This document shows, piece by piece, positions 13,018 through 58,544 of a stretch of 64,000 nt of DNA. This stretch comes from Methylobacter tundripaludum (lineage in GTDB: Bacteria > Pseudomonadota > Gammaproteobacteria > Methylococcales > Methylomonadaceae), in the NCBI RefSeq assembly GCF_002934365.1, contig NZ_PTIY01000008.1:1-64000 (forward strand), read 5' to 3'. The notes beneath the pieces are model-generated. The model saw nothing but the letters and a program-made list of their open reading frames with translations. It searched no databases and was not told the origin of the DNA. How positions within the stretch are numbered: the first letter of the stretch is position 1; each line of letters starts with the position of its first letter. The position numbers were made by a program, and so were the translations under genes.

Positions 13018-13262
13018 TCGGCGAATAGTTCGGCTACATGTTGATCCACGCTGTCTTTGCTGAACCGGCCCGCTGTAACATCCTGTTGCGCCTCATATAG
13101 CGCTGCTTCCAGTTCCATTTCGCGCAGATAATGGTAATGTTCGATTTTCATCACCACAAAGCTTTCTTTGCCGCGCACGGTTATAACGGCTTCCGGCTGA
13201 TTCGCAAGGCTCTCTTCTAAACAGGCGATGCCTTTGGTTTTTAAGTCGTTTGCTGTAATCAT
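13014..13262 (-). CDS. Phd/YefM-like antitoxin
   Basis: An 82-residue protein from ATG at 13262 (MITANDLKTKGIACLEESLA). The N-terminal part resembles Phd/YefM-type DNA-binding antitoxins, with VITVRGKESFVVMKIEHYHYLRE as the core. The C-terminal tail is acidic and probably wraps the toxin. A longer frame starts at 13319, but the promoter identified at 13291-13319 would put that start in or before the -35 box, so the ATG at 13262 is preferred. Expected to neutralise the toxin and repress its own promoter. Confidence 0.83.
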   Translation of the reverse strand: MITANDLKTKGIACLEESLANQPEAVITVRGKESFVVMKIEHYHYLREMELEAALYEAQQDVTAGRFSKDSVDQHVAELFAE

Positions 13263-13290
13263 TTTAATCACCCGATAAATAGTGCGATTG

Positions 13291-13319
13291 ACTATATTCT
13301 TGAGAGTATTGTTTGTCAA
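13291..13319 (-). promoter_or_regulatory. Sigma-70-type promoter of the toxin-antitoxin operon
   Basis: On the minus strand TTGACA (13319-13314) and TATAGT (13296-13291) are separated by exactly 17 bp, a near-consensus promoter. It lies 29 bp upstream of the antitoxin ATG. The spacer and start region (AATACTCTCAAGAATAT) would be a natural site for autoregulation. Confidence 0.8.
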
Positions 13320-13342
13320 ATACCCCCTGTAAAAGTAAAAAG

Positions 13343-34707: not shown

Positions 34708-36897
34708 ATGAAGTACAGCGCAGTGCTCAGGCATCAGCGCATGTTGAAACGGACTTATGGGCTACAGGACTGGAAAGCCGCGCCGAACGGGTTTACTATT
34801 GGCTTGAAGACAGGATGCAGGGGCGTTAATTTAAGCCTCGTTTACACCAAACTCAGGACAGCAGCCGATGAACAACAGGATTATGTACCGGAGCGCCAAG
34901 CAATACACAGCCTGTGCAAGCCGATGGTAAACCCTAAAAAACACAGGCTTAGACTTCCGGTATTTTCTACCGGCGGGAAAGTTGTTTTTATTATCTCCCT
35001 GTTCGTACTGATTTCGGTATTGCTGGGCGGCATGATTTTTTGGTACGGCAATATTTTCGACGGCGTGCGCTCCTACGTCAGGGGCGAAGGCTTGTGGGCC
35101 AAAGCGCAAAAGGATGCCGTATTCTATCTGGACAGTTATTCCTATAATCACGCGGAAACCGATTACAACGCTTATCAAGAAGCCCTAGAGGTCATCAAGG
35201 GCGATAAAAACGCCCGATTGGCATTACTGGAATCGCCCCCAAACTACGAAGAAGCCAGAAAAGGCTTTCTGCTGGGACAAAACCACCCGGACGATATCGA
35301 TTCAATGATCGGGTTCTTTTTAACATTCCAGCGTATTTCCTACATGCGCGACGCTATCGCTACCTGGCAATCCGCCGATCAAACCATCGACGAATTGAAG
35401 CGGCTAAGCGGGCAAATTCGAACTGAAATCAACGCACCAAACCGCAATACAGGGAAAATATCCGAATTGAGGCAACGCTTGCAGCATCTCAACGACCGGC
35501 TTCATCAGCTGGAAAACCGCTTTTCGCTGATTCTGGGTGAAGGGGCAAGATGGGTCAAACAAACGACATGGCGCATTACCGTGCTGGCACTGCTTATCTT
35601 TACCGGTATCGGACTATGGGTCAGCCGTCAGATCATCAAGGGAATCACCAAAGCGGAGCAGCAGCTGACTATCAGCGAATTGCGGTTCCGCAGGCTCAAG
35701 GAATCGAATACGATCGGCATTATTTCCTGGAGAATGGACGGCAGTATCGAGGAAGCGAACGATCTGTTTTTAACTATGCTCGGCTATGACCGATCGGATA
35801 TTTCGGCCGCCGCCATCAACTGGCGGGAGATTACGCCGGTTGAGTTTCAGCGCCGGGATCAACAAGCCGTCAATGAGCTGTTAACACAGGGGCGATGCGA
35901 GCCTTTCGAGAAAGCCTTGATCCATAAACAGGGACATTGGGTGCCGGTATGTATTGGCGCGGCGATGCTCGACAACAATCAGGAGCAAGGCGTCGCCTAT
36001 GTGATGGATCTGAGCGAACATAAAAAAGCGAAGCAGCAGTTACAATTGGCGGCAACGGTTTTTGCCAGCAGCAGCGAGGGGATTTTGATTACCGATTCAT
36101 CGGCCCACATCGTTTCGGCCAACCAAGCGCTTTGCGCGATGACCGGATACGACGAAAGCGAATTATTGGGCCAGCCTCCGTCGATCCTGCAATCGGGTTA
36201 TACCGCCGACGAAGACTATAACCGAATGTGGGAATCGCTGAATCAAACCGGCCAATGGCAGGGCGATATTATCGACCGGATGAAAAACGGCGACTTAATA
36301 CCGATGAGAGTCAGCATTAATCAGGTAAAAAACACCGATAACCAAATCACGCATTATGTCGCCATCATGTCGGATATTTCCGAACACAAGGCAAAAGAAG
36401 AGCATTTGCGCCATATCGCTTATCATGACCCTTTGACCGGATTGGCCAACCGGGTGCTGTTCGACGACCGGCTTGAGCATGCCATTAAAGTGGCGGCGCG
36501 CAACAACACCCAATTTGCCGTGTTGTTTCTGGACTTGGATAAATTCAAGCCGGTTAACGATCTATTCGGACATAAGGTCGGGGACCGGCTATTGCAAAAA
36601 GTGGCCGACCGACTCACCCGCAGCGTCCGCGAAACCGATACGGTCACCCGCTTGGGCGGCGACGAATTCGTCATACTGCTCGAGAATGTCAGCAACCGGG
36701 AAATGGTGGAAAAACTGCTTAACCAGATTATCGACACAATAAGCAACGCTTACCGTATTGATGATTACGATATAGAAATTGGCGTGAGCGCCGGAATCGG
36801 CCTTTATCCGGGCGATGGAACCGACGCTAAAACGCTGCTGCAGCATGCGGATACAGCAATGTACGAAAGAAAAGGGGCAAAAGGATCGTGCGCTTAA
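34708..36897 (+). CDS. Membrane PAS-PAS-GGDEF diguanylate cyclase
   Basis: Up to 729 residues. Two transmembrane helices (VVFIISLFVLISVLLGGMIF near residue 90; VLALLIFTGIGLWVSRQII near 290) enclose a helical periplasmic sensor region. Two PAS domains follow (about 315-440 and 445-565), then a GGDEF domain (about 570-725) with RLGGDEFVILL and the inhibition site RETD five residues before it, so it is predicted active. Start is uncertain: ATG at 34924 (MVNPKKHRLR) lies just before the first helix, and no good ribosome site supports either start. The last helix is short and ends GAKGSCA. It converges on the histidine kinase gene. Confidence 0.88.
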   Translation: MKYSAVLRHQRMLKRTYGLQDWKAAPNGFTIGLKTGCRGVNLSLVYTKLRTAADEQQDYVPERQAIHSLCKPMVNPKKHRLRLPVFSTGGKVVFIISLFVLISVLLGGMIFWYGNIFDGVRSYVRGEGLWAKAQKDAVFYLDSYSYNHAETDYNAYQEALEVIKGDKNARLALLESPPNYEEARKGFLLGQNHPDDIDSMIGFFLTFQRISYMRDAIATWQSADQTIDELKRLSGQIRTEINAPNRNTGKISELRQRLQHLNDRLHQLENRFSLILGEGARWVKQTTWRITVLALLIFTGIGLWVSRQIIKGITKAEQQLTISELRFRRLKESNTIGIISWRMDGSIEEANDLFLTMLGYDRSDISAAAINWREITPVEFQRRDQQAVNELLTQGRCEPFEKALIHKQGHWVPVCIGAAMLDNNQEQGVAYVMDLSEHKKAKQQLQLAATVFASSSEGILITDSSAHIVSANQALCAMTGYDESELLGQPPSILQSGYTADEDYNRMWESLNQTGQWQGDIIDRMKNGDLIPMRVSINQVKNTDNQITHYVAIMSDISEHKAKEEHLRHIAYHDPLTGLANRVLFDDRLEHAIKVAARNNTQFAVLFLDLDKFKPVNDLFGHKVGDRLLQKVADRLTRSVRETDTVTRLGGDEFVILLENVSNREMVEKLLNQIIDTISNAYRIDDYDIEIGVSAGIGLYPGDGTDAKTLLQHADTAMYERKGAKGSCA

Positions 36898-36910: not shown

Positions 36911-38941
36911 TTATAAAATGCCGGTATCGCCTAACCATTGAGCAAGCCCTTCAAAATCGAATTGATTGACCCGCTCCGACAACACATCGGCTAACGGCGC
37001 ATCCAGTGCTTTAACTTGTTCGATTACCGCCAAGCTGTGCTCTATATCCAGGCACATGACCGCTTGCCGCAATTCGGACAGCAGCTCTTCGGGCAACTGC
37101 TTCAAGCACTGGCTATACGGCTGAGTCAACAATTGCTCGGCAGCGTTTTTCTCATTAACCGGCTCATCGTAAATAAAACGCACGCCTAAATACGTTGCCA
37201 TGGCATCGAAAATCTCGGCATCGCGATAGGGTTTACCGACAATGCCGTTGACGCCCGCATTTAAAAACTCCTGCCGTTGTTCCGCAAAAATCGATGCGGT
37301 AACTGCAACAATTTTCACTTTACCGCCATCCGGCAAAGCGCGGATTTTTTGCGTGGCCGCCATGCCGTCCATAATGGGCATGCGTCTATCCATCCAAATA
37401 AAATCCGGCTTCCAGCGCTTAAATTGTTCTACGCCTTGCTGACCGTTCACCGCTTCCCGCACTTGAAAACCGACCGCTTCCATCAACCTTTTCAGCAACA
37501 GCCGATTTTCCAATTGATCCTCGACAACCAGAACGCGGTAAACGGGCTGTCCCGCCGCTAATCCCAGCACTCGCTTACCATCGAAAACGGATTTGTTGAT
37601 AATCTCCGATTCGCCGACCTTGGCGACGGGCAAGGTCAAGATAAAAGACGAGCCCTTGTCCAATTCACTGGTCACGGTAACTTGGCCACCCATTAATTCA
37701 GCATATTGCTTGGTAATCCGCAAACCTAAGCCGCTGCCTTGCTGATCGGATTCCCTGCCGACCTGGACAAAGGTATCGAAAACAAACGGCAGATCCTGCT
37801 CGGCAATGCCGATGCCGGTGTCTTTAACCTCGCAGGTGAGTATGCATTGCCCAGTATCGGGCGAGTTTTCAGCCGTTAGGCGCACAATAACGCGGCCCTT
37901 TAATGTGTATTTAATCGCATTACCGACCAGATTCAGTAAGATTTGCCGGAATTTTGCCTCATCGCTATTCACAAAGCGCGGAAAACTGGACGATTGGTCC
38001 AGCAACAATTCCAGGCCTTTGGCTTCGGCGCGTTCGTGCATCATGTCAATGGTGTCGCGAACTAACGCACCCAGGTCAAAATTACCGTTTTCGATAATCA
38101 CACGCCCCGCTTCAATTTTCGCCATATCCAGCACATCGTTAATCAGCCCCAGCAAATGCTTGCCGCTGTTGTTAATGATGTTCAGCGTCTCGCGTTGCGT
38201 TGGGCTGAGGTCGCTGTCTCTTTGCATCAGCTGAGAAAATCCCAACACGGCGTTCATCGGCGTGCGTAATTCATGGCTCATGTTAGCCAGGAATACACTT
38301 TTGGCCCGGTTCGCCGCTTCCGCTTCATTTTTTGCGGCGACTAAGTTCCGCTCGGTTTGCTTGCGAATGAGGATTTCTTGCTGCAATAGATTGTTGACGT
38401 GTTGCAGACGGGTGTATCCGAGAATCTCGTTTTTCAATACCAGCGCGGCGTAATTAAAAAACAGCGGCAATTGGCTGTACAAATCGCGCATAGCGATATG
38501 CAGACTTTCTATTTTAAACACGCCGATCACTACCGAACCGACTTTGAGCGGATAAATCCATGTATACGCATGGGTAAAAGCCGGCGTCAGCATTTGGGTA
38601 TCGTTAAAATCATGCTGATATTCGCTGGCGTCGCCGGTGGCGAAAGCGCTGATAACACGCTCGTCATCCGGTTGTTGCAATTGTTTTTTCACGCCATAAA
38701 CATCGGCATAAAAAATATCGGCATCGATTTTGTAATACAGGACCAAGTTGGCTCCGCCGATGACATCGACAATCGAACGCAACATATTGTCGATGACATT
38801 TTCCAAGCCCGAGGCTTCACTCATTTTGCTCATCAACTGCATGACCAGTTGTTGATTGGATTTGTCCAAAGCGAGTTTGGTCGCGCGTTGTTTAAGTTTA
38901 TTCCACTCGGCAGCGGGGATGGTGATCAGTTCATTGGGCAT
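36911..38941 (-). CDS. Soluble hybrid histidine kinase/response regulator
   Basis: A 676-residue protein without transmembrane helices. The N-terminal 180 or so residues look GAF-like (NLVLYYKIDADIFYADVYGV, TWIYPLKVGSVVIGVFKIES), then a coiled coil, HisKA with phospho-acceptor His in FLANMSHELRTPMNAVLGFS (near 230), HATPase motifs (LVGNAIKYT, DTGIGIAEQDLPFVF, GSGLGLRITKQ) and a receiver domain near 475-600 (VLVVEDQLENRLLLKRLM, phospho-Asp in FIWMDRRMPIMDG). A C-terminal helical tail remains. Its start overlaps the end of the DUF1638 gene, so it is the last gene of the corrinoid operon. The sensor ligand is unknown. Confidence 0.92.
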   Translation of the reverse strand: MPNELITIPAAEWNKLKQRATKLALDKSNQQLVMQLMSKMSEASGLENVIDNMLRSIVDVIGGANLVLYYKIDADIFYADVYGVKKQLQQPDDERVISAFATGDASEYQHDFNDTQMLTPAFTHAYTWIYPLKVGSVVIGVFKIESLHIAMRDLYSQLPLFFNYAALVLKNEILGYTRLQHVNNLLQQEILIRKQTERNLVAAKNEAEAANRAKSVFLANMSHELRTPMNAVLGFSQLMQRDSDLSPTQRETLNIINNSGKHLLGLINDVLDMAKIEAGRVIIENGNFDLGALVRDTIDMMHERAEAKGLELLLDQSSSFPRFVNSDEAKFRQILLNLVGNAIKYTLKGRVIVRLTAENSPDTGQCILTCEVKDTGIGIAEQDLPFVFDTFVQVGRESDQQGSGLGLRITKQYAELMGGQVTVTSELDKGSSFILTLPVAKVGESEIINKSVFDGKRVLGLAAGQPVYRVLVVEDQLENRLLLKRLMEAVGFQVREAVNGQQGVEQFKRWKPDFIWMDRRMPIMDGMAATQKIRALPDGGKVKIVAVTASIFAEQRQEFLNAGVNGIVGKPYRDAEIFDAMATYLGVRFIYDEPVNEKNAAEQLLTQPYSQCLKQLPEELLSELRQAVMCLDIEHSLAVIEQVKALDAPLADVLSERVNQFDFEGLAQWLGDTGIL

Positions 38942-39527
38942 GCAGGCTATCCAATTTACGGCTGATGGCCGCTTGCAAGACGTTTTCGAGATGATCCAAG
39001 CTTACATCGCGCCATTGCAAAGGCAAGTCCAGCATGGCGCTGATGTGCAGGGCTTTTTGGCTAAAATCGCCGGATTGCGGCGTGCGCAGGCACAACAGGT
39101 AACGGTGCTGGTCATGAAAAATATCGCGGATTACATCGATATTCGAGCCGAAGGTTTTGGCAATAACGGCATCCCAATTGCGCGCCCAGTCATCCAATAA
39201 AAAGTACGCGCCTTGAGTCAGTTCCCGATTGAATTCTTCCGCCCCCAGCAGCATTTCGATGCAGTTTTGTCCCGCTGTTCGCAGAGTGCGCGCCTCATTC
39301 AGCATAGTATCCATTCCCGGATGGCAGGCCCCGTAAAAGACAATGGTTTGTTCATCCGCATGCCTGGCTAAGCCTGTGTGTAAAGCGCCGGCCAAGCCTT
39401 TGAAGTCAATGTGCAGAGAAGCGGGCAGAAAATCCGTTGCCAACGGCCAGTTATTTTTTGCAATTAAATAACCGACTTCTTTTTGCAAAATGCCGCAGCC
39501 GACCAGGCTCAGTGTTGATGTTGACAT
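38931..39527 (-). CDS. DUF1638-family protein
   Basis: A 198-residue protein from ATG 39527 (MSTSTLSLVGCGILQKEVGY); a GTG start at 39569 is also open, and no strong ribosome site is seen for either. Landmarks are the GCGILQKEV start, YGACHPGMD, RTAGQNCIEMLLGAEEFN and YFLLDDWARNWD. Cysteines in GCG, GACH and NCIEMLLG are plausible metal or cofactor ligands. From general knowledge this family is found beside corrinoid methyltransferase genes, mainly in anaerobes; its function is unknown. It lies about 150 bp after the URO-D-like gene and overlaps the kinase gene by 11 bp. Confidence 0.85.
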   Translation of the reverse strand: MSTSTLSLVGCGILQKEVGYLIAKNNWPLATDFLPASLHIDFKGLAGALHTGLARHADEQTIVFYGACHPGMDTMLNEARTLRTAGQNCIEMLLGAEEFNRELTQGAYFLLDDWARNWDAVIAKTFGSNIDVIRDIFHDQHRYLLCLRTPQSGDFSQKALHISAMLDLPLQWRDVSLDHLENVLQAAISRKLDSLHAQ

Positions 39528-39555
39528 ATACAATTTCAGCCGCAGATCGACAGAT

Positions 39556-39640
39556 AAGGCGAAAGGCACAGGGCTAAAGGCGAAAAAATCCGAGCGTCAA
39601 CACGCCCGCCCTTAGTCTTTCGTCTTTCGCCTTTCGCCTC
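39556..39640. repeat. Heptamer-type inverted arrays in the operon gap
   Basis: AAGGCGAAAGGCACAGGGCT, then AAAGGCGAAAAAA, on one side (39556-39587), and CTTTCGTCTTTCGCCTTTCG on the other (39616 onward) form an imperfect hairpin of GGCGAAA-type units. It separates the URO-D-like gene from the DUF1638 gene. Confidence 0.85.
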
Positions 39641-39681
39641 ACTCTTGATAATGTCCATCCGCGTAATCCGTGGCCGAACAA

Positions 39682-40710
39682 TTAACATTGCCCAAACTCA
39701 TAAACAGTATCCAACATTGCCCGAATATTGCGTTCAGGAATTTTGTACGGCATCAGGATCGTGCCGAAAAGGAATTTACCGCCCGCCATGCCCGCCTCCA
39801 ACATGCGTTTCACCTCTTGCCTGATTTGCTCCTCCGACCAATCAATCAGCTTAATGTCATTGATAACGCCGCAGGTCAGGCCGCGGCCGTTGATGATTTG
39901 TTTTCCTGCCGCAATATCATCCAAAGGGCTTAAATAATAAGTCTCGATGCCGATTTGCGAAATAATGGCTTCTATGACCTGATTAAAACGCGCCCCGCCG
40001 CAGTAATAGACGATGCCTTGCGTGCCTGCGCTTAAATCCTGTTTCATCCACGGTATGCCCGTTTTGATGATGTATGGCAGCGGCACAAAATCGGTGGAAC
40101 CGAACGGGTTGGCGTAAACGATCACATCGACGCCCAATTCCCTCAATGCGGCGATATGACGCTGACAAAATAAGGAACATTTGGCCAATAGCTCATCGCG
40201 CACTTCCGGCGGTCCCATGAACAATAACTCAAACCATTTATCCATGCCCATTAATAAGGCGGGCAATGCCATAGCGGCGGTCACATAACCGCAAATCGGA
40301 TAACGCCCGCCCACTTCCCGCTTCAGGATTTGCAGGCATTTCAGTTCCTCGACAAAAACGGGGTGATGAGTAATATCGTCAGGAATTTCCAGCCGGTGAA
40401 TATCGTCATAAGACTGAATGACAAAATGCTCAACATTCGGCGGGCCGTCGGGCGAAAACAAAATCTTTCGACAGCCCAATAATTCCGCCTCCTTGCCGAC
40501 ATAAAACAAGCTCCATACGTTATCGTAACCGTATTTCTCGCGCATTTTCAGTTGCCCTTCGGCAACGTATTCACCGCTTTGATAATAATCGTACAAAGAA
40601 ACCAAGCCCAGTTCTTTAGCGCCTTGATCCAGCAAATTGCAAAACACGGGAATCCGATCCGCCTTTTCGCCCTTTATTGCCGCGACCAATCTATCCATTC
40701 CAGTCATCAT
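39682..40710 (-). CDS. URO-D/MtaA-like corrinoid methyltransferase homologue lacking two zinc ligands
   Basis: A 342-residue uroporphyrinogen decarboxylase-fold protein of the type that moves methyl groups between a corrinoid protein and an acceptor (MtaA/CmuA branch). It starts MTGMDRLVAAIKGEKADRIP, includes CGYVTAAMALPALLMG and the late segment LFGTILMPYKIPERNIRAML. In MtaA the zinc ligands are His and Cys in HICG and a later Cys in GCGIAPRTP. Here they read YYCG and LFGTILMP, so only one Cys is kept. Its start overlaps the corrinoid-protein stop by 4 bp (ATGA). Methanotrophs have no coenzyme M, so the acceptor must differ. Confidence 0.87.
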   Translation of the reverse strand: MMTGMDRLVAAIKGEKADRIPVFCNLLDQGAKELGLVSLYDYYQSGEYVAEGQLKMREKYGYDNVWSLFYVGKEAELLGCRKILFSPDGPPNVEHFVIQSYDDIHRLEIPDDITHHPVFVEELKCLQILKREVGGRYPICGYVTAAMALPALLMGMDKWFELLFMGPPEVRDELLAKCSLFCQRHIAALRELGVDVIVYANPFGSTDFVPLPYIIKTGIPWMKQDLSAGTQGIVYYCGGARFNQVIEAIISQIGIETYYLSPLDDIAAGKQIINGRGLTCGVINDIKLIDWSEEQIRQEVKRMLEAGMAGGKFLFGTILMPYKIPERNIRAMLDTVYEFGQC

Positions 40711-41375
40711 TTGTGCATCCCCTCGATTAAATCTTTAATGACTTTTCCTGCTGAAATACCGTCGCTTGCCCAAGCGTCCGCCCGGACAACTTTATAAAGT
40801 TCCGTATCCCATGTGTAAGGCGCGCCGCCGACAATGATTTTAATGCGGTCTTCTAATCCGCGTTCTTTGAGCAATTGCCGTACTGCAAGACAGCCCCGTT
40901 CACTGCGGGCTGTATGCACCATCATCGAAGAAATGGCGATAATGCCTGCGTCATGTTCCAGCGCGGCAGCGACAAAGCGCTCGGCGCTGACATTAACGCC
41001 TAAATCAATCACATCAATCATCAACGAACGCAAACAGCCGCTGACAATGCGTTTACCCAGCGTGTGCAGATCAGCATACGATGTGCCGATGACGACACGG
41101 CCAATGGTTTCCGGGCTTGTTTGAAACCGCGCGACCATTTCGTCGGTGACTTGCGAGGCGATTTGAGAAGCCATGAAATGCTGGGCGAGATTGGCGTCAA
41201 AATCTTCGCTGATGGCTTTAATCATCATTTCCATCGAAGGAATCACCACTTTAAAAACAATCTCCTCGGGCGTAACGCCTTGGGCGATTGCGTCGTGAAT
41301 GACCTCGAACGCTTTATCTCGATCCGTATCGAAAACGGCTTCGCTATAAGCTGCGATAACTTTTTCCAGCATCAT
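40707..41375 (-). CDS. Corrinoid (B12-binding) methyl-carrier protein
   Basis: A 222-residue two-domain protein of the MtaC/MtbC/MttC type. The N-terminal helical cap is about residues 1-90 (EEIVFKVVIPSMEMMIKAIS). The Rossmann-like B12 domain holds the base-off/His-on motif D102-L-H104-T-L-G107 (GTSYADLHTLGKRIV), where His104 would bind cobalt, and later VGGAPYTWD. It is expected to carry a methyl group on cobalamin. It sits between the activator and URO-D-like genes, with an 11-bp gap and a 4-bp overlap. Confidence 0.94.
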   Translation of the reverse strand: MMLEKVIAAYSEAVFDTDRDKAFEVIHDAIAQGVTPEEIVFKVVIPSMEMMIKAISEDFDANLAQHFMASQIASQVTDEMVARFQTSPETIGRVVIGTSYADLHTLGKRIVSGCLRSLMIDVIDLGVNVSAERFVAAALEHDAGIIAISSMMVHTARSERGCLAVRQLLKERGLEDRIKIIVGGAPYTWDTELYKVVRADAWASDGISAGKVIKDLIEGMHK

Positions 41376-41386
41376 AAAACTCTCGG

Positions 41387-42946
41387 TTAAGCTAACAGCA
41401 TCGGCTGCAAATAAAGATTATCGACAAAAACATCTTCATATCCGTCAACTTGCGACAAATTAACTATTTCAACGCAACGCTTCAATTCATTTAACTGCTC
41501 ATCCCGATTAGAACTTGAAAGCAATTGCTCGCATCCCATTAACGCCGTATTGCCGCACAATTCGACTCTTTCAGGCGCGCAATCGGGCAATAAACCTATG
41601 GCCTGAGCCTGTTGAATATTTAGAAACCGCCCAAAAGACCCCGCAATGCACAACCGGGTTAAATCCGCCGATGTCGCGCCTGCGATGCCAATCAGTTTAC
41701 TGATACCGGCTCCTGTGGCCGCTTTGGCGCGCTGAAAAATATCAATATCCTGTTTTTTAACAGTAACACGATAATTCAGATTGACTAACTCGATTTCCAA
41801 TTCCGAATCCGCCTGAACAAAGCGGCCGTTTTTTTTCAGTTGTCCCGATGCCAGCAGGCATGCCATCACATCGCATAAGCCCGAACCGCATAATCCTTTA
41901 ATCTCGCTGGTATCGTTTACTGTACCGATTAATTCACCGCGAAACTCGCCTGTCGCGGCGTCATAATTAACATGACTAATCGCGCCCTGCTCGGCGGCAA
42001 CGCCGCAGCTAATGCCGCAACCTTCAAACGCGGGGCCGCCGGGAACTGACGTGATCCATAATTTGTTCCGATGCCATAAAGCCATCTCGGTGTTGGTGCC
42101 AAAATCAACAAACAACGCACTCCCCTCACTCTGCGCTAAACCCACAGCCAATAAGCCAACTAACAGATCGGAACCGACAAAACCCGCTACGGGCTGAACG
42201 ACGGAAATAGGAATTTGCGTTTGCCCCAATGTCGAAAAATCTAAGGAGCAATCGATGGCTTGCGTCCAGTACGCCGGCTGTAATAATTGCTCAACATGCT
42301 TGTTCGCCAACAACACCAACATCGCGGTATTGCCGACCAGCAAGATTTCGGTAATGCTCAATTGATTAGTGTCTGCCCACTCCGTGAGCACACTCTCCAC
42401 CGTGTCCTGTATCAGCTCGCTCATCGCCGTCCCTGCGGCCTTATCCGTCGCAGCGGCGTTCAAGCGGTTGAGTATGTCCGTGCCGTAATAAGCTTGCGGA
42501 TTAAATCCGCAATAGCCTGCAATACGGCGTCGATGGACGCTATCCCATAGGCTGATTCGCAACTGCGTTGACCCCAAATCGACTGCCGCAGCATACCGGG
42601 CATTAGCCGCCAGTGGCGAATGCACGGTCAAGTTATCCAACGCATCGATAGCCAGCGGATTAATCAGGGTAACGCTTGCGTGGTCAAACAACCTGATTTG
42701 ACAGGCCAGACGGATGCCTTGAGCGATCTGGCCGGCGCTAAGCCGCCGATGTTCATACTGTGTCAGCTCGCCGGTCCGGCCCTGGTCGATACGCACCAGA
42801 CACAGGCCGCATGTACCCTTGCCCTGACACGCTGACCGTACCCGTGTATGTTCAGACATCGCCAACAATTTGAATACGTTGGCAGAGGATGTAAAGGGAA
42901 TATCGGCGATGTGTTGATGGTTTAAGGCAACGGATAGTATGGGCAT
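41387..42946 (-). CDS. ASKHA/ferredoxin reductive activator of corrinoid protein (RACo-like)
   Basis: A 519-residue protein with an N-terminal plant-type [2Fe-2S] domain, cysteines C40, C46, C49 and C82 (SACQGKGTCGLC and RLACQ), a linker, and an ASKHA ATPase domain (DUF4445 type) with AVDLGSTQLRISLWD, FVDFGTNTEMALWHRN, GGPAFEGCGISCG and CGSGLCDVMACLL. Proteins of this design use ATP to reduce inactive Co(II) corrinoid to the active Co(I) state. Its place next to the corrinoid protein gene supports that role. It starts 9 bp after the HD-GYP gene. Confidence 0.94.
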   Translation of the reverse strand: MPILSVALNHQHIADIPFTSSANVFKLLAMSEHTRVRSACQGKGTCGLCLVRIDQGRTGELTQYEHRRLSAGQIAQGIRLACQIRLFDHASVTLINPLAIDALDNLTVHSPLAANARYAAAVDLGSTQLRISLWDSVHRRRIAGYCGFNPQAYYGTDILNRLNAAATDKAAGTAMSELIQDTVESVLTEWADTNQLSITEILLVGNTAMLVLLANKHVEQLLQPAYWTQAIDCSLDFSTLGQTQIPISVVQPVAGFVGSDLLVGLLAVGLAQSEGSALFVDFGTNTEMALWHRNKLWITSVPGGPAFEGCGISCGVAAEQGAISHVNYDAATGEFRGELIGTVNDTSEIKGLCGSGLCDVMACLLASGQLKKNGRFVQADSELEIELVNLNYRVTVKKQDIDIFQRAKAATGAGISKLIGIAGATSADLTRLCIAGSFGRFLNIQQAQAIGLLPDCAPERVELCGNTALMGCEQLLSSSNRDEQLNELKRCVEIVNLSQVDGYEDVFVDNLYLQPMLLA

Positions 42947-42955
42947 TTTGCTCGG

Positions 42956-44014
42956 CTATTCAGCTGTCGTATATTTGTTTCGGATAACGATAAAGTCATC
43001 CAAATGGTCAAAAAACAGCGTAACCATATCAGGGTCAAAATGCCGGCCGCGTTCTTGTTGAAAAATCTCTAAAATCTCTTCCAAACTCTTCGACGGCTTA
43101 TAACAGCGCATAGCCCCCAGTGCGTCGAACACATCGGCGACCGCGGTAATGCGCCCGGCCACGCTGATTTCTTCGCCTTTAATGCCATAGGGATAGCCGG
43201 TACCGTCCCATTTTTCATGATGTTCCAGCGTAATCGTCGCGGCCAGTTTAAATAGGGGGCGTTGCGACACACTGAGCATCTGATAACCCAAATGGCTGTG
43301 CGTTTTCATGGTCGCCCATTCTTCGTCGGTCAACGCTCCCGGCTTATTCAAAATGCTGTCGGGAATAGCGACTTTACCGATGTCGTGCATGGAAGCCGCC
43401 TGTTTCATCAGGTCTAACTGTTCAAAACCGTATAATTTTGCCAATAAATACGAATATTCGGCGACACGTTTTACATGCTGCCCCGTTTCGTGCGAACGGG
43501 TTTCGCAAACCTGCCCCATCGTAAAAATAAGTTCTTGCTGGGTATCGATGATTTCCTGATTCAAGCCCTCGATTTCGCGAATGCCCAGCACTATTTGCGC
43601 TTCCATGTCGTCTTCATAGGCTTTTAAACGCAAATGGGTGGCGACCCGGGCTTTTACTTCTTCAAATTGAAAAGGTTTATTAATGTAATCGAGAGCGCCC
43701 ACATTAAAGGCCTGGATTTTATCGGCAACATCATTTAAGGCGCTGATAAATAGCACAGGAATATTCTTGGTTTCAGGATTATTTTTTAACGCCGCGCAGA
43801 CCTCATAACCGCTCATTTCAGGCATTTTAATATCCAGCAGGATCAAGTCCGGCTTTTTTGCCGCAACCGCTTGCAGGGCCATAGCGCCGTTGCTGGCGGG
43901 GCGTACTTTATAGCCTTCTTCTTTCAAAAGCGTCGATAATAGCTGCAAATTCGCCAATGTATCATCGACAATTAAAATATCCGCTGCGTATTCCAAAGGT
44001 AAACCTTTAACCAT
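42956..44014 (-). CDS. Response regulator with HD-GYP cyclic-di-GMP phosphodiesterase domain
   Basis: A 352-residue protein. The receiver domain (about 10-135) has DILIVDDTLANLQLL and the phospho-Asp in LILLDIKMPEMSGYE. A helical linker leads to an HD-GYP domain (about 165-345) with HETGQHVKRVAEYS, MHDIGKVAIPDSIL, HSHLGYQML and HHEKWDGTGYPYG, all metal and GYP residues kept. It should degrade cyclic di-GMP when phosphorylated. It is the first gene of the corrinoid operon; the likely donor kinase is the last gene. Confidence 0.95.
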   Translation of the reverse strand: MVKGLPLEYAADILIVDDTLANLQLLSTLLKEEGYKVRPASNGAMALQAVAAKKPDLILLDIKMPEMSGYEVCAALKNNPETKNIPVLFISALNDVADKIQAFNVGALDYINKPFQFEEVKARVATHLRLKAYEDDMEAQIVLGIREIEGLNQEIIDTQQELIFTMGQVCETRSHETGQHVKRVAEYSYLLAKLYGFEQLDLMKQAASMHDIGKVAIPDSILNKPGALTDEEWATMKTHSHLGYQMLSVSQRPLFKLAATITLEHHEKWDGTGYPYGIKGEEISVAGRITAVADVFDALGAMRCYKPSKSLEEILEIFQQERGRHFDPDMVTLFFDHLDDFIVIRNKYTTAE

Positions 44015-52112: not shown

Positions 52113-53213
52113 ATGAGTGAAACTCAAATATCTCTGGATAACCCAAAATCGCTCAGCCAATGTTCTGACGATGAATTTCAAGCTCTCTTACTTGAGGGTG
52201 TCTCCAGAACATTTGCGCTGACCATTCCCCAATTGCCGGAAAAGTTATACGGTGCAGTCGCCAACGCTTATTTGTTATGCCGTATTGTCGACACCATAGA
52301 AGACGAAGTCTCCCTGTCCCCCGAACAAAAAAAATATTTTTGCTCCGAGTTTATTCAGATCGTAAAAACCGGCATCAATTCAGAGCCGTTTGCCGTGGAA
52401 CTTGCACCATTGCTGTCCGCTCAGACGATTCCCGCGGAGCACACCTTAATTCATGTATTGCCGCGAGTTATCCAAATCACCCACAAATTTGATCCCGATC
52501 AAATCGAGGCGCTGGCCACCTGTGTAGAAACCATGGCTGAAGGCATGCCGATCTTCCAAGCCCAGGATCTGCATGGCGGCCTTGAAACACTCGCCGACAT
52601 GGACAGGTATTGCTATTACGTTGCCGGTTGCGTCGGTGAAATGCTGGCCAAGCTTTTTTGCCATTACTCACCGGAAATTGCACAACACAAAGAGGAATTG
52701 CTTACCCTTTCGGTGTCCTTCGGCCAAGGTCTGCAAATGACCAACATATTAAAGGATATTTGGGACGATGCCGGACGCGGCGTTTGCTGGTTACCTCAGG
52801 ATATTTTCACCGAAACGGGGTTTGACCTTAAAAAGCTGACACCGGAAACTAATGACGAAAGCTTCAGAAAGGGCTTGGAACACTTAATCAGCATTGCTCA
52901 CGGCCATTTGCATAACGCGCTGAAATACACGCTGTTGCTGCCCAGCCATGAGACCGGTCTCCGCAACTTCTGTCTTTGGGCATTGGGCATGGCTGTTTTA
53001 ACCTTGAAGAAAATCAAGCAAAACCTGGATTTTACCGATTCCGATCAAGTCAAAATCACCCGCAACAGCGTTAAAGCGACTATTTTAGCGACCCGATTAA
53101 CAGGACGTAGCAACACCATGTTGACCTTACTTTTCAACCTGACAAGTCGTGAACTCAAAACGCCCGACTGGACATATTCAACACCATCCTCAAAAGCCAA
53201 GATAAAACTTTAA
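52113..53213 (+). CDS. sqs: Squalene synthase (farnesyl-diphosphate farnesyltransferase type)
   Basis: A 366-residue enzyme that condenses two farnesyl diphosphates to squalene. Two Asp-rich magnesium sites are present: D60-TIE-D64 (CRIVDTIEDE) and D215-IWDD (NILKDIWDDAGRG). The sequence SRTFALTIPQLPEKLYGAVA and YCYYVAGCVGEMLAKLF are like eukaryotic-type squalene synthase rather than the HpnC/HpnD pair, neither of which is in the window. It is the first gene of the plus-strand hopanoid operon, 11 bp before shc. Confidence 0.92.
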   Translation: MSETQISLDNPKSLSQCSDDEFQALLLEGVSRTFALTIPQLPEKLYGAVANAYLLCRIVDTIEDEVSLSPEQKKYFCSEFIQIVKTGINSEPFAVELAPLLSAQTIPAEHTLIHVLPRVIQITHKFDPDQIEALATCVETMAEGMPIFQAQDLHGGLETLADMDRYCYYVAGCVGEMLAKLFCHYSPEIAQHKEELLTLSVSFGQGLQMTNILKDIWDDAGRGVCWLPQDIFTETGFDLKKLTPETNDESFRKGLEHLISIAHGHLHNALKYTLLLPSHETGLRNFCLWALGMAVLTLKKIKQNLDFTDSDQVKITRNSVKATILATRLTGRSNTMLTLLFNLTSRELKTPDWTYSTPSSKAKIKL

Positions 53214-53224
53214 GGACGTAACTT

Positions 53225-55183
53225 ATGTTTAATGAAACCAATTCAGAAATAAATACCGGCAGCCACATTTCGAGTTCATCGAACACTGTTAATAATTATT
53301 CATTGGATCTCAATCGAGCCATTAACAAAGCGCAGGATAAATTATTAAGCCTGCAGGACAAAGACGGTTATTGGGTATTCGAACTGGAAGCCGACTGCAC
53401 GATTCCATCCGAATACATCATGATGATGCACTATCTGGGTGAAATTGATGAGTCGCTGCAGGCCAAAATAGCCAACTACTTAAGATCACGCCAATCCGAA
53501 GACGGCAGCTACCCGCTGTTTACCGGCGGCCCCGGCGACATCAGTTGCAGCGTTAAAGTTTATTATGCGTTAAAAATGGCCGGCGATGCTATCGACGCGC
53601 CGCATATGGTCCGTTTAAGAAGCTATATCCTCAGCCAGGGCGGAGCGGCAAAAGCCAACGTCTTTACCCGTATTGCGCTGGCGACCTTCGAGCAATTGCC
53701 TTGGCGCGGTGTTCCGTATATTCCTGTCGAAATCATGCTGTTCCCCAGCTGGTTTCCGTTCCATCTGGACAAAGTAGCTTACTGGTCAAGAACCGTTATG
53801 GTGCCGCTGTTTATTCTTTGCACTTTAAAAGCGACGGCAAAGAACCCCAACAACATCAATGTGCTGGAGCTTTTCGTCACTCACCCCGATGAAGAAAAAC
53901 ACTATTTCCCTGAAAGAACTCTGTTAAATAAACTTTTCCTGGGCCTGGACAAACTGGGCCGGGTAACGCGTCCGTTAATCCCGAAAAAAGCGCATGAATT
54001 GGCGATTCAAAAGGCCAAAGACTGGTTTATTGAACGCCTGAACGGCGAAGACGGCCTGGGCGGAATTTTTCCGGCGATGGTCAACGCTTATGAAGCCATG
54101 CTGTTGCTGGGCATGCCTAAAGATCATGAACATGTCGTCACCGCGCGTAAAGCCATAGACAAATTACTGGTCGTCAATGAGCATGACGCCTACTGCCAAC
54201 CTTGCTTGTCCCCGGTTTGGGATACGGCGCTGGCCGCACTGGCCTTACAGGAAGCCGACAAGGCGGGCAACAGCCAAAACCTGACTCGCGCTTACGACTG
54301 GCTTAAAAGCAAACAGCTATCTGACGAGCCCGGCGACTGGCGTATTTCCAAGCCAGATTTGGCAGGCGGCGGCTGGGCGTTTCAATTTGAAAATCCGCAT
54401 TATCCCGATGTCGACGACACTGCAGTCGTGGCTTTCGCGATGGCGGAATCGAACGTGCCCAACCTGGACGAATCGATACACCGGGCAACCCGCTGGATAG
54501 TCGGCATGCAATCCAAAAATGGCGGTTACGGCGCGTTCGATGTCGATAATACTTACTATTATTTGAATGAAATTCCTTTTGCGGATCACGGGGCGTTATT
54601 AGACCCCCCTACAATCGATGTCAGCGCGCGTTGCGCGATGCTGATGGCCAGAGTGGCTCAGGATCACGCCGAATATTTGCCGGCGTTAGAGCGCACTATC
54701 GAATACATCCGTAGCGAACAGGAAGCTGACGGTTCATGGTTTGGCCGCTGGGGTACTAACTATATCTACGGCACTTGGTCGGCACTGCTTGGCCTTGAGC
54801 AAACCAGCCTGCCTAAAACCGACCCAATGTACACCAAGGCCACAGCATGGCTGAAAAGCGTACAGCGCGGCGATGGCGGCTGGGGCGAAGACAACTACAG
54901 CTACCACGATGTAAGCCATAGCGGAAAATATCATTTCAGCACCGCATTCCAAACAGCCTGGGCCGTTTTAGCATTGATGGCGGCCGGTGAAGCTCACAGT
55001 CCCGAAGTGAAAGCGGGTATCGATTTCATCCTGCGCAACCAGAAAGCGGATGGCGTATGGAACGATGAATGCTTTACCGCTCCTGGCTTCCCCAAGGTTT
55101 TCTACCTCAAATACCACGGTTACGACAAGTTCTTCCCGCTATGGGCGCTGGCTCGCTACCGTAACGAGCTCCTCAGAAAGTGA
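53225..55183 (+). CDS. shc: Squalene-hopene cyclase
   Basis: A 652-residue monotopic membrane enzyme that cyclises squalene to hopene/hopanol. The catalytic D395-V-D-D398 motif (PDVDDTAVV) and several QW repeats (for example QDKDGYWVFE, QSKNGGYGAFDVD, QEADGSWFGRWGTNYIYGTW, QRGDGGWGEDNYSY, QKADGVWNDECF) are all present. Length and layout are standard. The stop overlaps the GTG start of hpnG. Confidence 0.98.
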   Translation: MFNETNSEINTGSHISSSSNTVNNYSLDLNRAINKAQDKLLSLQDKDGYWVFELEADCTIPSEYIMMMHYLGEIDESLQAKIANYLRSRQSEDGSYPLFTGGPGDISCSVKVYYALKMAGDAIDAPHMVRLRSYILSQGGAAKANVFTRIALATFEQLPWRGVPYIPVEIMLFPSWFPFHLDKVAYWSRTVMVPLFILCTLKATAKNPNNINVLELFVTHPDEEKHYFPERTLLNKLFLGLDKLGRVTRPLIPKKAHELAIQKAKDWFIERLNGEDGLGGIFPAMVNAYEAMLLLGMPKDHEHVVTARKAIDKLLVVNEHDAYCQPCLSPVWDTALAALALQEADKAGNSQNLTRAYDWLKSKQLSDEPGDWRISKPDLAGGGWAFQFENPHYPDVDDTAVVAFAMAESNVPNLDESIHRATRWIVGMQSKNGGYGAFDVDNTYYYLNEIPFADHGALLDPPTIDVSARCAMLMARVAQDHAEYLPALERTIEYIRSEQEADGSWFGRWGTNYIYGTWSALLGLEQTSLPKTDPMYTKATAWLKSVQRGDGGWGEDNYSYHDVSHSGKYHFSTAFQTAWAVLALMAAGEAHSPEVKAGIDFILRNQKADGVWNDECFTAPGFPKVFYLKYHGYDKFFPLWALARYRNELLRK

Positions 55184-55899
55184 TCACCGGCATTGTTGTA
55201 GCTTTGCCGGAAGAACTCAGCACCCTGACCTCAAAAAAAATTGATAAAGGGTGCTGTGTTTTTATTACCGACGCAATCGTCCTCGTCTATGCCGGCGCTG
55301 GCCCGGACAATGCCCGCGCGGCATCTGAGTTATTGATTGCACAAGGCGTCACCAAACTGATCAGCTGGGGTTGCGCGGCCGCCCTCTGCGAAACACTAAA
55401 ACCTGGCGATCTGGTCCTGACCGATACGCTGATAGATATCGAGTTGCTTGAGATCAGCATTCACGCTGAATGGCACAGCCATACCCATAACTTGCTGTCA
55501 TCCCATCTACCGGTCCACACCGGCAGTTTAGCCGAAAGCAAAGGCATCGTAGCAACCGGCAGGCAAAAAAAGCACCTATACGCACATACCGGGGCAATCG
55601 CATTGGACATGGAGAGCATCGCCATAGCCAAAGTCGCCCGGAAAAACAACCTGCCTTTTTTAGCGATCCGCGCCATCGCCGATCCGGCTCACATGGATTT
55701 GCCCAAAGCCATCAATCATTCGCTTAATGATCACGGCGACATTGTTTTGCGTAAATTGTTATTGTTTATCGTGCTCAACCCTTCCGAATTACCGGGACTT
55801 ATAAAACTGGGCCGACATTTTAATGCCGCCAAAAACACGTTAAAATTGATTGCCAAACAGCTCCATCATTTGACCGCATTAGCCAGCCACGAGCAATAA
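55180..55899 (+). CDS. hpnG: Hopanoid nucleoside phosphorylase HpnG
   Basis: A 239-residue phosphorylase-fold protein that removes adenine from adenosylhopane to give ribosylhopane derivatives. The start is GTG at 55180 (VITGIVVALPEELSTL), overlapping the shc stop. Landmarks include YAGAGPDNARAASELLIAQG, ISWGCAAAL, GDLVLTDTLID and ALDMESIAIAKVARK near the active site. It follows HpnH in the pathway and is 5 bp before hpnN. Confidence 0.93.
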   Translation: MITGIVVALPEELSTLTSKKIDKGCCVFITDAIVLVYAGAGPDNARAASELLIAQGVTKLISWGCAAALCETLKPGDLVLTDTLIDIELLEISIHAEWHSHTHNLLSSHLPVHTGSLAESKGIVATGRQKKHLYAHTGAIALDMESIAIAKVARKNNLPFLAIRAIADPAHMDLPKAINHSLNDHGDIVLRKLLLFIVLNPSELPGLIKLGRHFNAAKNTLKLIAKQLHHLTALASHEQ

Positions 55900-55904
55900 A
55901 CAGC

Positions 55905-58544
55905 ATGTCATCCTTTTTCAACACCCTTATTGGCTGGTGCGAACGGCAAATCATGCGCTGCCCTTGGACGCTGTTATTGTTGTCGCTATTGCTCTGCGGC
56001 GCCACGTTCGTTTACACCCTTAAAAACCTGGAAATTAACACCAACACCGCTGAAATGCTGTCCCCCGACTTGCCTTTCCAGCAGAACCAGGCGCATTTGA
56101 ATCAGGCATTCCCCGAGGATGCCAATACCATTATTTTTGTGGTTCAGGCCGAAACGCCGGAAGAAACGGCTCAAGCCGCCGCCAAGCTCGCCGAGCAATT
56201 AAATAAAGCAAACGATCGCTTTGATTCCGCCTACATCCCCACGGACAATGCTTTTTTCAGGCAACAAGCCCTGCTCTATCTCAATCAAAACGATCTGGAT
56301 AAACTGGCTAAAAAACTCACCGACGCCCAGCCTTTCATCGGCCACCTTGCTCAGAATTATCACCTTGAAGGCCTGTTCGGCATTATCGGTCAAGCGCTTA
56401 ACCGGCATGACAACGCCTTGCCTATGGACTTGAATCCGATACTCGTCGCTATCGACGATATTCTGAAAAACCAGTTAAACGGCACGTCGCACTATGTGTC
56501 CTGGCAAAACATACTGGCTGAAAACAAGCCGAATACCGACGATTACAAGGATGCAGGCGCGCAAACAAAATTTAACCGGAGCATCGTCATCGCCAAGCCT
56601 AAAATGCATTTTAATGAAATGCTGCCCGCCGATGTCGCGCTCTCGGCAGCGCGTGAAATCAGTCACGGCATCATGGCCGAAAATCCATCGCTCAGCATCC
56701 GCATAACCGGCGAAACCGCCCTGGAACACGAAGAACTTGAAAGCGTGACCAAAGGCGCGGCTTTCTCCGGCATGTTGTCGCTGATTTTAGTCTGCGCAGT
56801 CCAATGGATAGGTTTGCGTTCAATAAGATTACTGGTTACGACCTATGTCGTTCTGGTCATGGGCTTGATATTCACCGCCGGATTCGCCGCCGTCACCGTC
56901 GGGCATTTAAATGTCATTTCCATCACCTTCGCCAGTTTATATATCGGACTGGGGGTCGATTACGCGATCCATATCTGCCTTCATTACCGAGAAGGCAAGG
57001 CGGACGGTCTGTCAAACAGCGAAGCCATCCTGATCAGCATCCGCGATGTCGGCTCTTCCTTGTTTTTATGCGCCCTGGCCACTGCGATCGGTTTTTTTGC
57101 GTTCATCCCGACCGATTATGCCGGCGTATCCGAGTTAGGCGTTATTTCAGGCGGCGGGATCTTTATCGGCCTGATTATTTCGCTGACCGTGTTACCGGCC
57201 ATATTCTGCGTTTTTCCGGTCAATAATGTAAAACCGATACGTTCGCCGTTAACCCCGGCCTTTATCATCACGTTTCCGTTCCGCTTTTCGACCGGTATCA
57301 AAATCGTATCCATATTGCTGGGCATCGGCGCCTGTTTCGTATTGGCCGATTTCACCTTTGATTACGACCCTATCAACCTGAGAGATCCAAACAGCGAATC
57401 GGTCGTGACCATTAAAGAACTGCTGAAATCAAAAACCGAATCCCCCTTCGCGCTGACCGCGCTGGCAAACAACCTTGAAGACGCCGGCAAAATCACCGCC
57501 CGACTGGAACAGCAGCCGTCGGTACATGAAGCTATCACCTTGGCGAGTTTTGTCGCCAAAGACCAGGACGATAAGCTGACAACTATTGAAGATTTGAATC
57601 TGATGCTGGGCGGTCAAATTAAAAACTTCGACAGCACTCTCAATACCGCGAACCACAACCAGCAAGCCGCATTGATTAAATTCAATGAAGCGCTGAAAAA
57701 AGCCATTGTTGAAAAGTCCCCTCATGCGCCGCAACAAACCTTGCAGCAATTGCAGCAGCGCGTTGACGCATTCGTGAATCAGGCAGACAGCACGCCTATT
57801 CCTGCCGACAGTTATGTACAGTTGGAAAAAAACATTCTAGGCCTGCTGCCGTTCACCATCGAACGCCTCCGAACCAGCTTGACCCCAGTACCGTTTGGAA
57901 TGGACGACCTGCCGCGGGAGATAACATCGCACTGGGTCAGCTCCACCGGCCTTTACAGAATCCTGATCACGCCTGAAAAAGATCAAAACGTACCGGAGAA
58001 TCTAAAAGAATTTGTCAGCCAAGTGCAGGCTATTGATAACACCGTTTCCGGCCTGCCGATTTTTAATCAGGCCGGGGGCGTTATCGTGGTTAATGCTTTT
58101 GTTAAAGCATTTAGCGGCGCTTTCATTGCCATTGTGATGTTATTATTGCTGATGTACAGAAACGTCAGAAAGACCCTGCTGGTTATCATGCCGTTATTGC
58201 TTGCCGCTTTACTGACCAGCGCAAGTAATGTGCTGCTGGATAATCCTTTCAATTTCGCCAATATTATCGCCCTGCCCTTGCTGTTGGGCATGGGCATCGA
58301 CAGCAGCATCCTTATCATGCACAGGCACCATTCCAGTGAATGTGAAGATGAAAATTTGCTGCAAAGCAGCACCACCCGAGGCATTATTTTCAGCTCCATA
58401 ACGACCTTATGCAGCTTTTCCAGCTTGGCCTTCACCGCTCACCGGGGAATGGCCAGCATGGGCTTAGTATTAGCCATAGGCCTTACTTTCACAGTGATGT
58501 GTTCTTTAATAGTCCTGCCAGCTTTCAGCGGCAAAAGAATTTAA
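55905..58544 (+). CDS. hpnN: Hopanoid RND transporter HpnN
   Basis: An 879-residue MMPL/RND-type inner-membrane protein that carries hopanoids toward the outer membrane. N-terminal helix TLLLLSLLLCGATFVYTLKN, a large periplasmic loop starting NTNTAEMLSPDLPFQQNQ, a sterol-sensing-like helix block (about 290-470, FASLYIGLGVDYAIHICLHY), a second loop and a second block (LPLLLGMGIDSSILIMHRHH). Both GxGxD motifs are present. Part of the operon, 5 bp after hpnG and 16 bp before hpnO. Confidence 0.95.
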   Translation: MSSFFNTLIGWCERQIMRCPWTLLLLSLLLCGATFVYTLKNLEINTNTAEMLSPDLPFQQNQAHLNQAFPEDANTIIFVVQAETPEETAQAAAKLAEQLNKANDRFDSAYIPTDNAFFRQQALLYLNQNDLDKLAKKLTDAQPFIGHLAQNYHLEGLFGIIGQALNRHDNALPMDLNPILVAIDDILKNQLNGTSHYVSWQNILAENKPNTDDYKDAGAQTKFNRSIVIAKPKMHFNEMLPADVALSAAREISHGIMAENPSLSIRITGETALEHEELESVTKGAAFSGMLSLILVCAVQWIGLRSIRLLVTTYVVLVMGLIFTAGFAAVTVGHLNVISITFASLYIGLGVDYAIHICLHYREGKADGLSNSEAILISIRDVGSSLFLCALATAIGFFAFIPTDYAGVSELGVISGGGIFIGLIISLTVLPAIFCVFPVNNVKPIRSPLTPAFIITFPFRFSTGIKIVSILLGIGACFVLADFTFDYDPINLRDPNSESVVTIKELLKSKTESPFALTALANNLEDAGKITARLEQQPSVHEAITLASFVAKDQDDKLTTIEDLNLMLGGQIKNFDSTLNTANHNQQAALIKFNEALKKAIVEKSPHAPQQTLQQLQQRVDAFVNQADSTPIPADSYVQLEKNILGLLPFTIERLRTSLTPVPFGMDDLPREITSHWVSSTGLYRILITPEKDQNVPENLKEFVSQVQAIDNTVSGLPIFNQAGGVIVVNAFVKAFSGAFIAIVMLLLLMYRNVRKTLLVIMPLLLAALLTSASNVLLDNPFNFANIIALPLLLGMGIDSSILIMHRHHSSECEDENLLQSSTTRGIIFSSITTLCSFSSLAFTAHRGMASMGLVLAIGLTFTVMCSLIVLPAFSGKRI

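Follow-up and report, generated by a model that had tools for sequence, protein, structure and literature searches.

A corrinoid protein module beside a GAF-type hybrid histidine kinase in Methylobacter tundripaludum: a candidate cytoplasmic sensory unit

The window analysed here is a stretch of 64,000 nucleotides from the methanotroph Methylobacter tundripaludum (positions 1 to 64,000 of contig NZ_PTIY01000008.1, assembly GCF_002934365.1). Between positions 36,911 and 44,014 its minus strand carries six consecutive genes. Four of them, encoding a RACo-like activator, a corrinoid protein, a protein of the URO-D superfamily and a DUF1638 protein, are referred to below as the corrinoid module; the other two encode a response regulator and a hybrid histidine kinase, both parts of two-component signalling. 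Comparison between genomes provides good support for a coupling of this module to signalling, which often involves cyclic di-GMP (c-di-GMP). The features of the locus are as follows (scores are from Pfam).

42956..44014, minus strand: response regulator of the HD-GYP type, a probable output lowering c-di-GMP (Response_reg, 108 bits; HD_5, 116 bits).
41387..42946, minus strand: RACo/RamA-like ATP-dependent reductive activator of corrinoid proteins, with a 2Fe-2S domain (RACo_C_ter, 208 bits; Raco_middle; Fer2).
40707..41375, minus strand: corrinoid (B12-binding) protein with a DxHxxG motif (B12-binding, 71 bits; cap, 25.5 bits).
39682..40710, minus strand: URO-D superfamily protein with an MtaA-like fold that lacks the HxC motif of MtaA (URO-D, 142.5 bits).
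39572..39680, minus strand: gap between the URO-D and DUF1638 genes, a possible operon break or attenuator (hairpin at 39608-39591; repeated piece).
38931..39527, minus strand: DUF1638 protein, the proposed relay from corrinoid unit to kinase (98 bits).
36911..38941, minus strand: hybrid histidine kinase with a GAF-fold domain, HisKA, HATPase and receiver.
38357..38941, minus strand: GAF-fold input domain of this kinase, codons 1-195 (fold model and Foldseek).
34708..36897, plus strand: convergent PAS-GGDEF protein, a possible further c-di-GMP partner (GGDEF, 168 bits).

The six minus-strand reading frames named in the preliminary description of this DNA are all present in the open reading frame (ORF) list at these positions, with Pfam matches above cut-off. 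The junctions given there are exact (9 bp, 11 bp, a 4-bp overlap and an 11-bp overlap), and the distance of about 150 bp between the URO-D and DUF1638 genes is 154 bp when measured from the ATG at 39527, or 112 bp if an upstream GTG is taken as the DUF1638 start. The further claim that the genes form one operon is less secure: a single transcript across the URO-D/DUF1638 gap is not certain, because a terminator-like hairpin and a genomic repeat lie ahead of DUF1638; we do not retain a single unbroken operon as established. The hairpin (39608-39591) is one of 14 sites found in a terminator-like scan, against 10.7 expected. The middle 25-38 bases of the gap have matches at 11 further places in the genome (84-96% identity), as would be expected of an intergenic repeat dispersed over the chromosome. 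The corresponding gap of the four closest Methylobacter loci measures 112 (L073), 143 (L074), 153 (L072) and 15 bp (L075).

A Pfam scan detects HisKA, HATPase and receiver domains and the response regulator, and finds no H-NOX or NosP heme protein among the six proteins. In NCBIfam the HD-GYP regulator comes closest to the NosR family, with 163.6 bits against a cut-off of 400. Orthologues of the regulator (62-90% identity) adjoin the module in L044, L055, L061, L064 and L066, and kinase orthologues (79-87%) occur in L039, L055, L061, L064 and L066. The end of the convergent GGDEF gene lies 13 bp from that of the kinase gene, and the GGDEF protein is retained next to the kinase in three relatives (L055, L064 and L066).

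Proteins of the RACo/RamA family keep corrinoids in the Co(I) state. The RACo gene of the module is the only copy found by searching its own genome, and the four Fer2 cysteines are kept at 95% or more among relatives. In the corrinoid protein, which has solved relatives (1y80 and 7xcn), the motif residues Asp102, His104 and Gly107 are kept at 95% or more in 78 aligned rows. The locus has two components of a corrinoid methyltransferase system, the DxHxxG-bearing corrinoid protein and an activator of the Ram/RACo type. The URO-D protein aligns over nearly its full length with the MtaA structure 4ay7 (E-value, 7.7e-14). In MtaA the HxC motif serves in zinc binding. The position of its histidine is substituted in 81 of 81 rows of the URO-D alignment (YYCG in 65, YYVG in 12, other residues in four), while the cysteine position is retained in 67 of 81, and the score against the MtaA/CmuA model TIGR01463 is 81 bits at a cut-off of 235. 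Because the histidine is replaced and the score falls far below the cut-off, the protein is unlikely to be an MtaA-type thiol methyltransferase. Its nearest relatives are found in M. tundripaludum SV96, whose orthologous cluster is L072, and other Methylobacter (90-95% identity). The cluster contains only one URO-D gene; the other URO-D protein of the genome, on contig C9 (486 bits), is presumably HemE.

Conservation was examined first among 251 genomes of the order Methylococcales, from which 40 neighbourhoods were read; three of these (L041, L054 and L069) were set aside, URO-D not being found in them. The URO-D clade and RACo each occur in 47 of the 251 genomes, and these are the identical 47. 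DUF1638 (PF07796) is found in 46 genomes, 45 of which are among the 47. RACo occupies 48 places: 44 share a contig with URO-D, at a distance of up to 5 kb in 42 cases and more in two, and four are on other contigs. The module is patchily distributed within the genus (8 of 19 listed genomes), as if it had been gained or lost as a unit. A histidine kinase lies within four genes of URO-D in all 37 neighbourhoods, and a c-di-GMP gene (GGDEF, EAL or HD-GYP) in 30 of the 37.

When 84,980 species genomes were searched with an alignment of URO-D, 139 relatives came to light. The best 80 of the 139 are called the 80 loci below; genes were counted in them when on the same strand and within 8 kb. Since the mechanical gene caller drops some overlapping genes (the corrinoid protein or DUF1638 in L043, L049 and L068), the counted absences may be too many. 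Gene order is retained among the 80 loci, which span 11 phylum labels, including Pseudomonadota, Thermodesulfobacteriota, Nitrospirota, Chloroflexota, Bacteroidota, Verrucomicrobiota, Acidobacteriota, Planctomycetota and Myxococcota. Part of the gene order in the preliminary description, namely RACo, corrinoid protein, URO-D, DUF1638 and kinase, recurs across the Methylococcales and under these labels. Several labels are scattered over the URO-D tree, and the module may have spread widely between bacterial lineages. Many of the loci are contigs of metagenome-assembled genomes, with labels that are approximate and perhaps in some cases misbinned. The URO-D proteins and neighbourhoods of L079 ('Bacteroidales') and L081 ('Alphaproteobacteria') are near-identical under these different labels, so one of the two is probably misbinned.

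The corrinoid protein is present in 77 of the 80 loci, a histidine kinase in 66 and a signalling domain of any kind in 69. Corrinoid protein and URO-D are fused into one polypeptide in eight loci, and where they are separate the most frequent junction is a 4-bp overlap. In 14 loci no kinase was recognised: nine of these extend less than 4 kb beyond URO-D, and another three (L085, L142 and L148) carry HD-GYP or GGDEF-EAL proteins instead. Signalling genes are concentrated just downstream of URO-D (49 of 72 genes at position +2, 37 of 66 at +3) and are scarcer farther off (8 of 109 at +6 to +8, 23 of 197 at -8 to -5). Together with the counts in the Methylococcales, these figures support the proposed link of the corrinoid module to signalling. 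The preliminary description had also placed the module between a kinase and an HD-GYP phosphodiesterase; the kinase is confirmed by the comparison, but the HD-GYP partner is inconstant. We rejected a universal c-di-GMP output, as c-di-GMP domains occur in only 31 of the 80 loci. The commonest constant signalling partner is a kinase of the GAF type.

No Pfam family matches residues 1 to about 190 of the window kinase; in some relatives this region gives GAF matches below cut-off. An AlphaFold model of the region has a mean pLDDT (predicted local confidence) of 90.1, and GAF domains predominate among the Foldseek matches listed. The model thus suggests a GAF fold without a Pfam match, which we present as new here. 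A profile was iterated from the N-terminus of the window kinase (alignment A4 holds the window sequence and 51 of 71 domain matches). It matches 62 of the 76 proteins encoded next downstream of the module, and the domain is present at 130 bits or more in 65 of the 80 loci, a count lowered from 66 by excluding a weak 16-bit match in L138. The outputs behind the domain are mostly HisKA kinases, but include GGDEF (L080), HD-GYP (L085) and, with no kinase, GGDEF-EAL (L142 and L148). Among the 251 Methylococcales genomes the domain is single-copy in 44, and in 43 of the 44 URO-D is found on the same contig at a distance of no more than 5 kb; the remaining copy (G244) adjoins DUF1638 close to a contig end. 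URO-D occurs without the domain in four genomes (G061, G110, G214 and G248). This dedicated GAF domain, single-copy and nearly always close to URO-D, is our best argument for counting the kinase as part of the corrinoid module.

DUF1638 has the near-invariant residues Cys10, Cys67, His68 and Cys88 (kept at 95% or more in 54 rows). A sequence search found no solved relative (best E-value, 0.62). In three Desulfuromonadales loci (L111, L120 and L136) DUF1638, a GAF domain and a kinase form one protein. The DUF1638-GAF part of the L111 protein is predicted with a mean pLDDT of 91.5 and a pTM (predicted template modelling score) of 0.73; the 50 Foldseek matches listed for this fusion model are mainly to the GAF domain or the whole protein and include no named DUF1638 fold. 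A second, distant URO-D clade (about 140-175 bits) is found in other Methylococcales and in gammaproteobacterial genomes. In 11 of its 13 loci (L174-L186) a kinase or GGDEF protein directly follows URO-D, and the corrinoid proteins seen retain DxHxxG. When 11 such downstream proteins were scanned, seven had an N-terminal DUF1638 above the Pfam cut-off and three had one below it, while the remaining protein had none; L177 and L180 have the architecture DUF1638-PAS-GGDEF, and L186 has DUF1638-PAS. Given the Desulfuromonadales fusions and the second-clade proteins, DUF1638 is part of signalling proteins in two clades.

We considered whether the kinase adjoins the module by chance. Many of these genomes are probably rich in kinases. 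The sharp positional peak after URO-D, the dedicated single-copy GAF domain and the fusions largely refute this explanation, to which we give hardly any weight.

A more serious question is whether the module belongs to an ordinary methyl-transfer pathway. The genome searched (assembly G000) has 4.18 Mb and a completeness of 99.9%. The preliminary description had noted that no substrate-specific first methyltransferase (MT1) accompanies the module, and had raised the prospect of one elsewhere in the genome. Searches for MttB- and MtaB-type MT1 enzymes came back empty; they did not take in MtmB, MtbB or MtrH. The claim of a missing MT1 is to that extent correct, but it is a weak premise, because URO-D-superfamily enzymes can themselves be MT1. 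CmuA and phenolic O-demethylases are such enzymes (PMC9768040, PMC10418091). Pterin-binding matches in the genome number two in all, a 273-residue FolP-type protein and the methionine synthase MetH, and these are also the only candidates found for an MT2 methyl acceptor, the MtrH family lying outside the search. B12-binding matches are confined to MetH, the module protein and a radical-SAM protein, with a MerR-type regulator below cut-off. Also encoded in the same genome, at L171:621-1529, is a regulator of the MerR type that carries B12-binding domains and is CarH-like in layout. Searching the 80 neighbourhoods by phmmer, with MetH and the longest FolP-type-locus ORF as queries, revealed no methyl-folate transferase; the part of MetH before residue 600 gave only stray matches to corrinoid proteins.

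These results bear on two further explanations. RACo and DUF1638 might mainly reactivate cobalamin for methionine synthesis, as in Phaeobacter inhibens, where a split methionine synthase requires RamA-like and DUF1638 genes (PMC5764234); the kinases would then be secondary. Here, however, MetH carries its own activation domain (Met_synt_B12, 441 bits), and RACo is confined to exactly those Methylococcales genomes that hold the URO-D clade. As MetH is self-equipped, we set aside a methionine-synthase reactivation set as unlikely, and consider this explanation quite improbable. According to the strongest rival, the genes serve a corrinoid methyltransferase pathway, catabolic or for salvage, that is merely under two-component control, with URO-D as MT1 and the acceptor encoded elsewhere. 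URO-D-family MT1 enzymes exist, the mec cassette pairs a kinase and regulator with a corrinoid cluster (PMC9768040), and the families outside our genome search (MtmB, MtbB and MtrH) leave room for a partner. The failure of phmmer to detect a methyl-folate transferase in the 80 neighbourhoods, with only MetH and the FolP-type match in the genome, speaks against such a pathway, and the frequent c-di-GMP outputs and the DUF1638-kinase and DUF1638-GGDEF fusions would be superfluous for its regulation. We regard it as rather unlikely, though it deserves to be taken seriously.

The interpretation we favour, and think fairly probable, is that the corrinoid protein, URO-D, DUF1638 and RACo make up a sensory unit in the cytoplasm. 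This unit would control the neighbouring hybrid kinase of the GAF type, which in turn would act on response regulators, those of this genome being directed at c-di-GMP. The anatomy of the locus, the co-inheritance of its genes, the dedicated GAF domain, the swapping of outputs and the fusions are computational observations; the mechanistic steps we infer are these. RACo, using ATP and its 2Fe-2S domain, would hold the corrinoid as reactive Co(I). URO-D might then present a small methyl donor, leading to methylation of the corrinoid; alternatively, O2, NO or another oxidant might reach the cobalt directly and oxidise it. DUF1638, with its conserved cysteines and histidine, would hand the state of the corrinoid to the kinase's GAF domain, a relay role suggested by the DUF1638-GAF-kinase and DUF1638-GGDEF fusions. 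Judging from its domains, the kinase would transfer phosphoryl groups to its own receiver as well as to the HD-GYP regulator, resulting in a change of c-di-GMP, and it may also signal to the convergent GGDEF protein. A sensor of this kind would need little turnover, which would match the missing methyl acceptor.

More broadly, there may be a wide class of bacterial receptors that use a corrinoid methyl-transfer machine as sensor, with a URO-D protein that lacks the zinc motif of MtaA and often with RACo, in at least two distant clades and with interchangeable kinase, GGDEF, EAL and HD-GYP outputs. In such receptors, methylation or oxidation of cobalt(I) by an environmental molecule would be relayed via DUF1638 and a dedicated GAF domain. 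We see the chances of this as even.

Several observations weigh against the sensory interpretation. RACo was counted in only 40 and DUF1638 in only 52 of the 80 loci. The 251 Methylococcales genomes are kin, so that Fisher values for co-occurrence among them are neither independent tests nor true probabilities. The clade is rare in a sample of the class, being found in 9 of 369 genomes at an E-value of 1e-40; only four of the nine reach 1e-160 or better, and two of these come from the window's own family. One of these genomes, G366 (L188), is a clear exception to the coupling: it carries all four genes of the module, but the strand they occupy shows no signalling gene farther downstream. URO-D may also be an unrecognised MT1 with an acceptor enzyme that is likewise unrecognised. 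Finally, 15 of the 80 loci lack the GAF domain, and we rejected a universal GAF input for this reason. Six of the 15 have kinases with the ethylene-receptor-like domain ETR1_N (L124, L128, L129, L132, L134 and L139), which come after DUF1638 where corrinoid protein and URO-D are fused. Other inputs are hemerythrin (L119), PAS (L115 and L130) and PAS with an ordinary GAF domain (L138); L094 has a phosphonate-binding-type protein ahead of its kinase, L118, L123 and L144 stop shortly after the module, and L127 switches strand. The sensor domain thus varies, with the signalling coupling common to most loci.

We know of no receptor that has corrinoid methyl-transfer chemistry as its input. The closest layout is that of H-NOX and NosP, where a heme protein is encoded beside a hybrid kinase and HD-GYP or EAL regulators of c-di-GMP are the outputs. 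The module resembles it in having a separate gene for a cofactor protein beside a hybrid kinase with an HD-GYP regulator, but in place of the heme protein it has a corrinoid protein, an ATP-driven reactivator, URO-D and DUF1638. The mec cassette of dichloromethane-fermenting bacteria contains the kinase MecA, the corrinoid protein MecB and three URO-D-superfamily proteins (PMC9768040). There, too, a kinase and regulator adjoin a corrinoid protein and a URO-D-superfamily protein; however, the mec kinase has a PocR domain and is taken to control transcription, and the cassette encodes a folate-type MTII, MecF (PMC9768040), whereas the module has a GAF-fold kinase, DUF1638, RACo and an HD-GYP output, and no MTII was found. 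The type 1 mlp clusters share with the module a corrinoid protein, Ram/RACo and a URO-D-family protein without a folate methylase, but need at least two Mlps and have been reported from obligate anaerobes (PMC10418091). The module differs in having one URO-D protein, short of the two Mlps, in occurring in a methanotroph and in its signalling genes; the words 'two-component', 'signal' and 'DUF' are absent from the part of PMC10418091 available to us.

The split methionine synthase of Phaeobacter and Ruegeria likewise combines RACo-like, DUF1638 and corrinoid proteins, and RamA-like and DUF1638 proteins have been tied to cobalamin recharging (PMC5764234, PMC12478193). No URO-D or kinase is described for that set in the parts seen of these two papers, and the genome studied here has a complete MetH. 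MsmS and RdmS of Methanosarcina are sensor kinases linked to corrinoid methyltransferase genes; they sense through their own heme or thiols, and an input from a corrinoid protein is not described in the available part of PMC6944256. We found no description of the module in the parts seen of PMC5764234, PMC12478193, PMC9768040, PMC10418091, PMC8846402, PMC6944256 and PMC11796333, and a full-text search of open-licence papers returned no report of a corrinoid module as a signalling input. PMC12542648 names DUF1638, and the authors of PMC5764234 declare that they can propose nothing specific for it. If correct, the sensory interpretation would assign DUF1638 a definite, testable role. It might also be relevant to bacteria that combine RamA-like and DUF1638 genes with a self-sufficient MetH, a combination called unexplained in PMC5764234, and would suggest how methanotrophs and other bacteria tie B12 chemistry to c-di-GMP.

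Other arrangements were seen among the loci. In L052 the gene upstream of RACo (13130-16015, minus strand) encodes a response-regulator receiver joined to an entire glycogen-phosphorylase domain, possibly a metabolic rather than a c-di-GMP output. L054 (6354-9342) has the RACo, corrinoid protein and DUF1638 of the clade; no URO-D was found there, kinases and a periplasmic-binding-type protein adjoin, and the genome holds a full module elsewhere. L041 (2292-11151) combines a RACo-like gene, a more distant DUF1638 (104 bits) and an unusually long kinase; a corrinoid protein of the MetH type is encoded close by, and the locus is perhaps a third arrangement. Elsewhere in the window, positions 52113-58544 encode consecutively a squalene/phytoene-synthase-type protein, a squalene-hopene cyclase and MMPL-type proteins, probably a hopanoid cluster.

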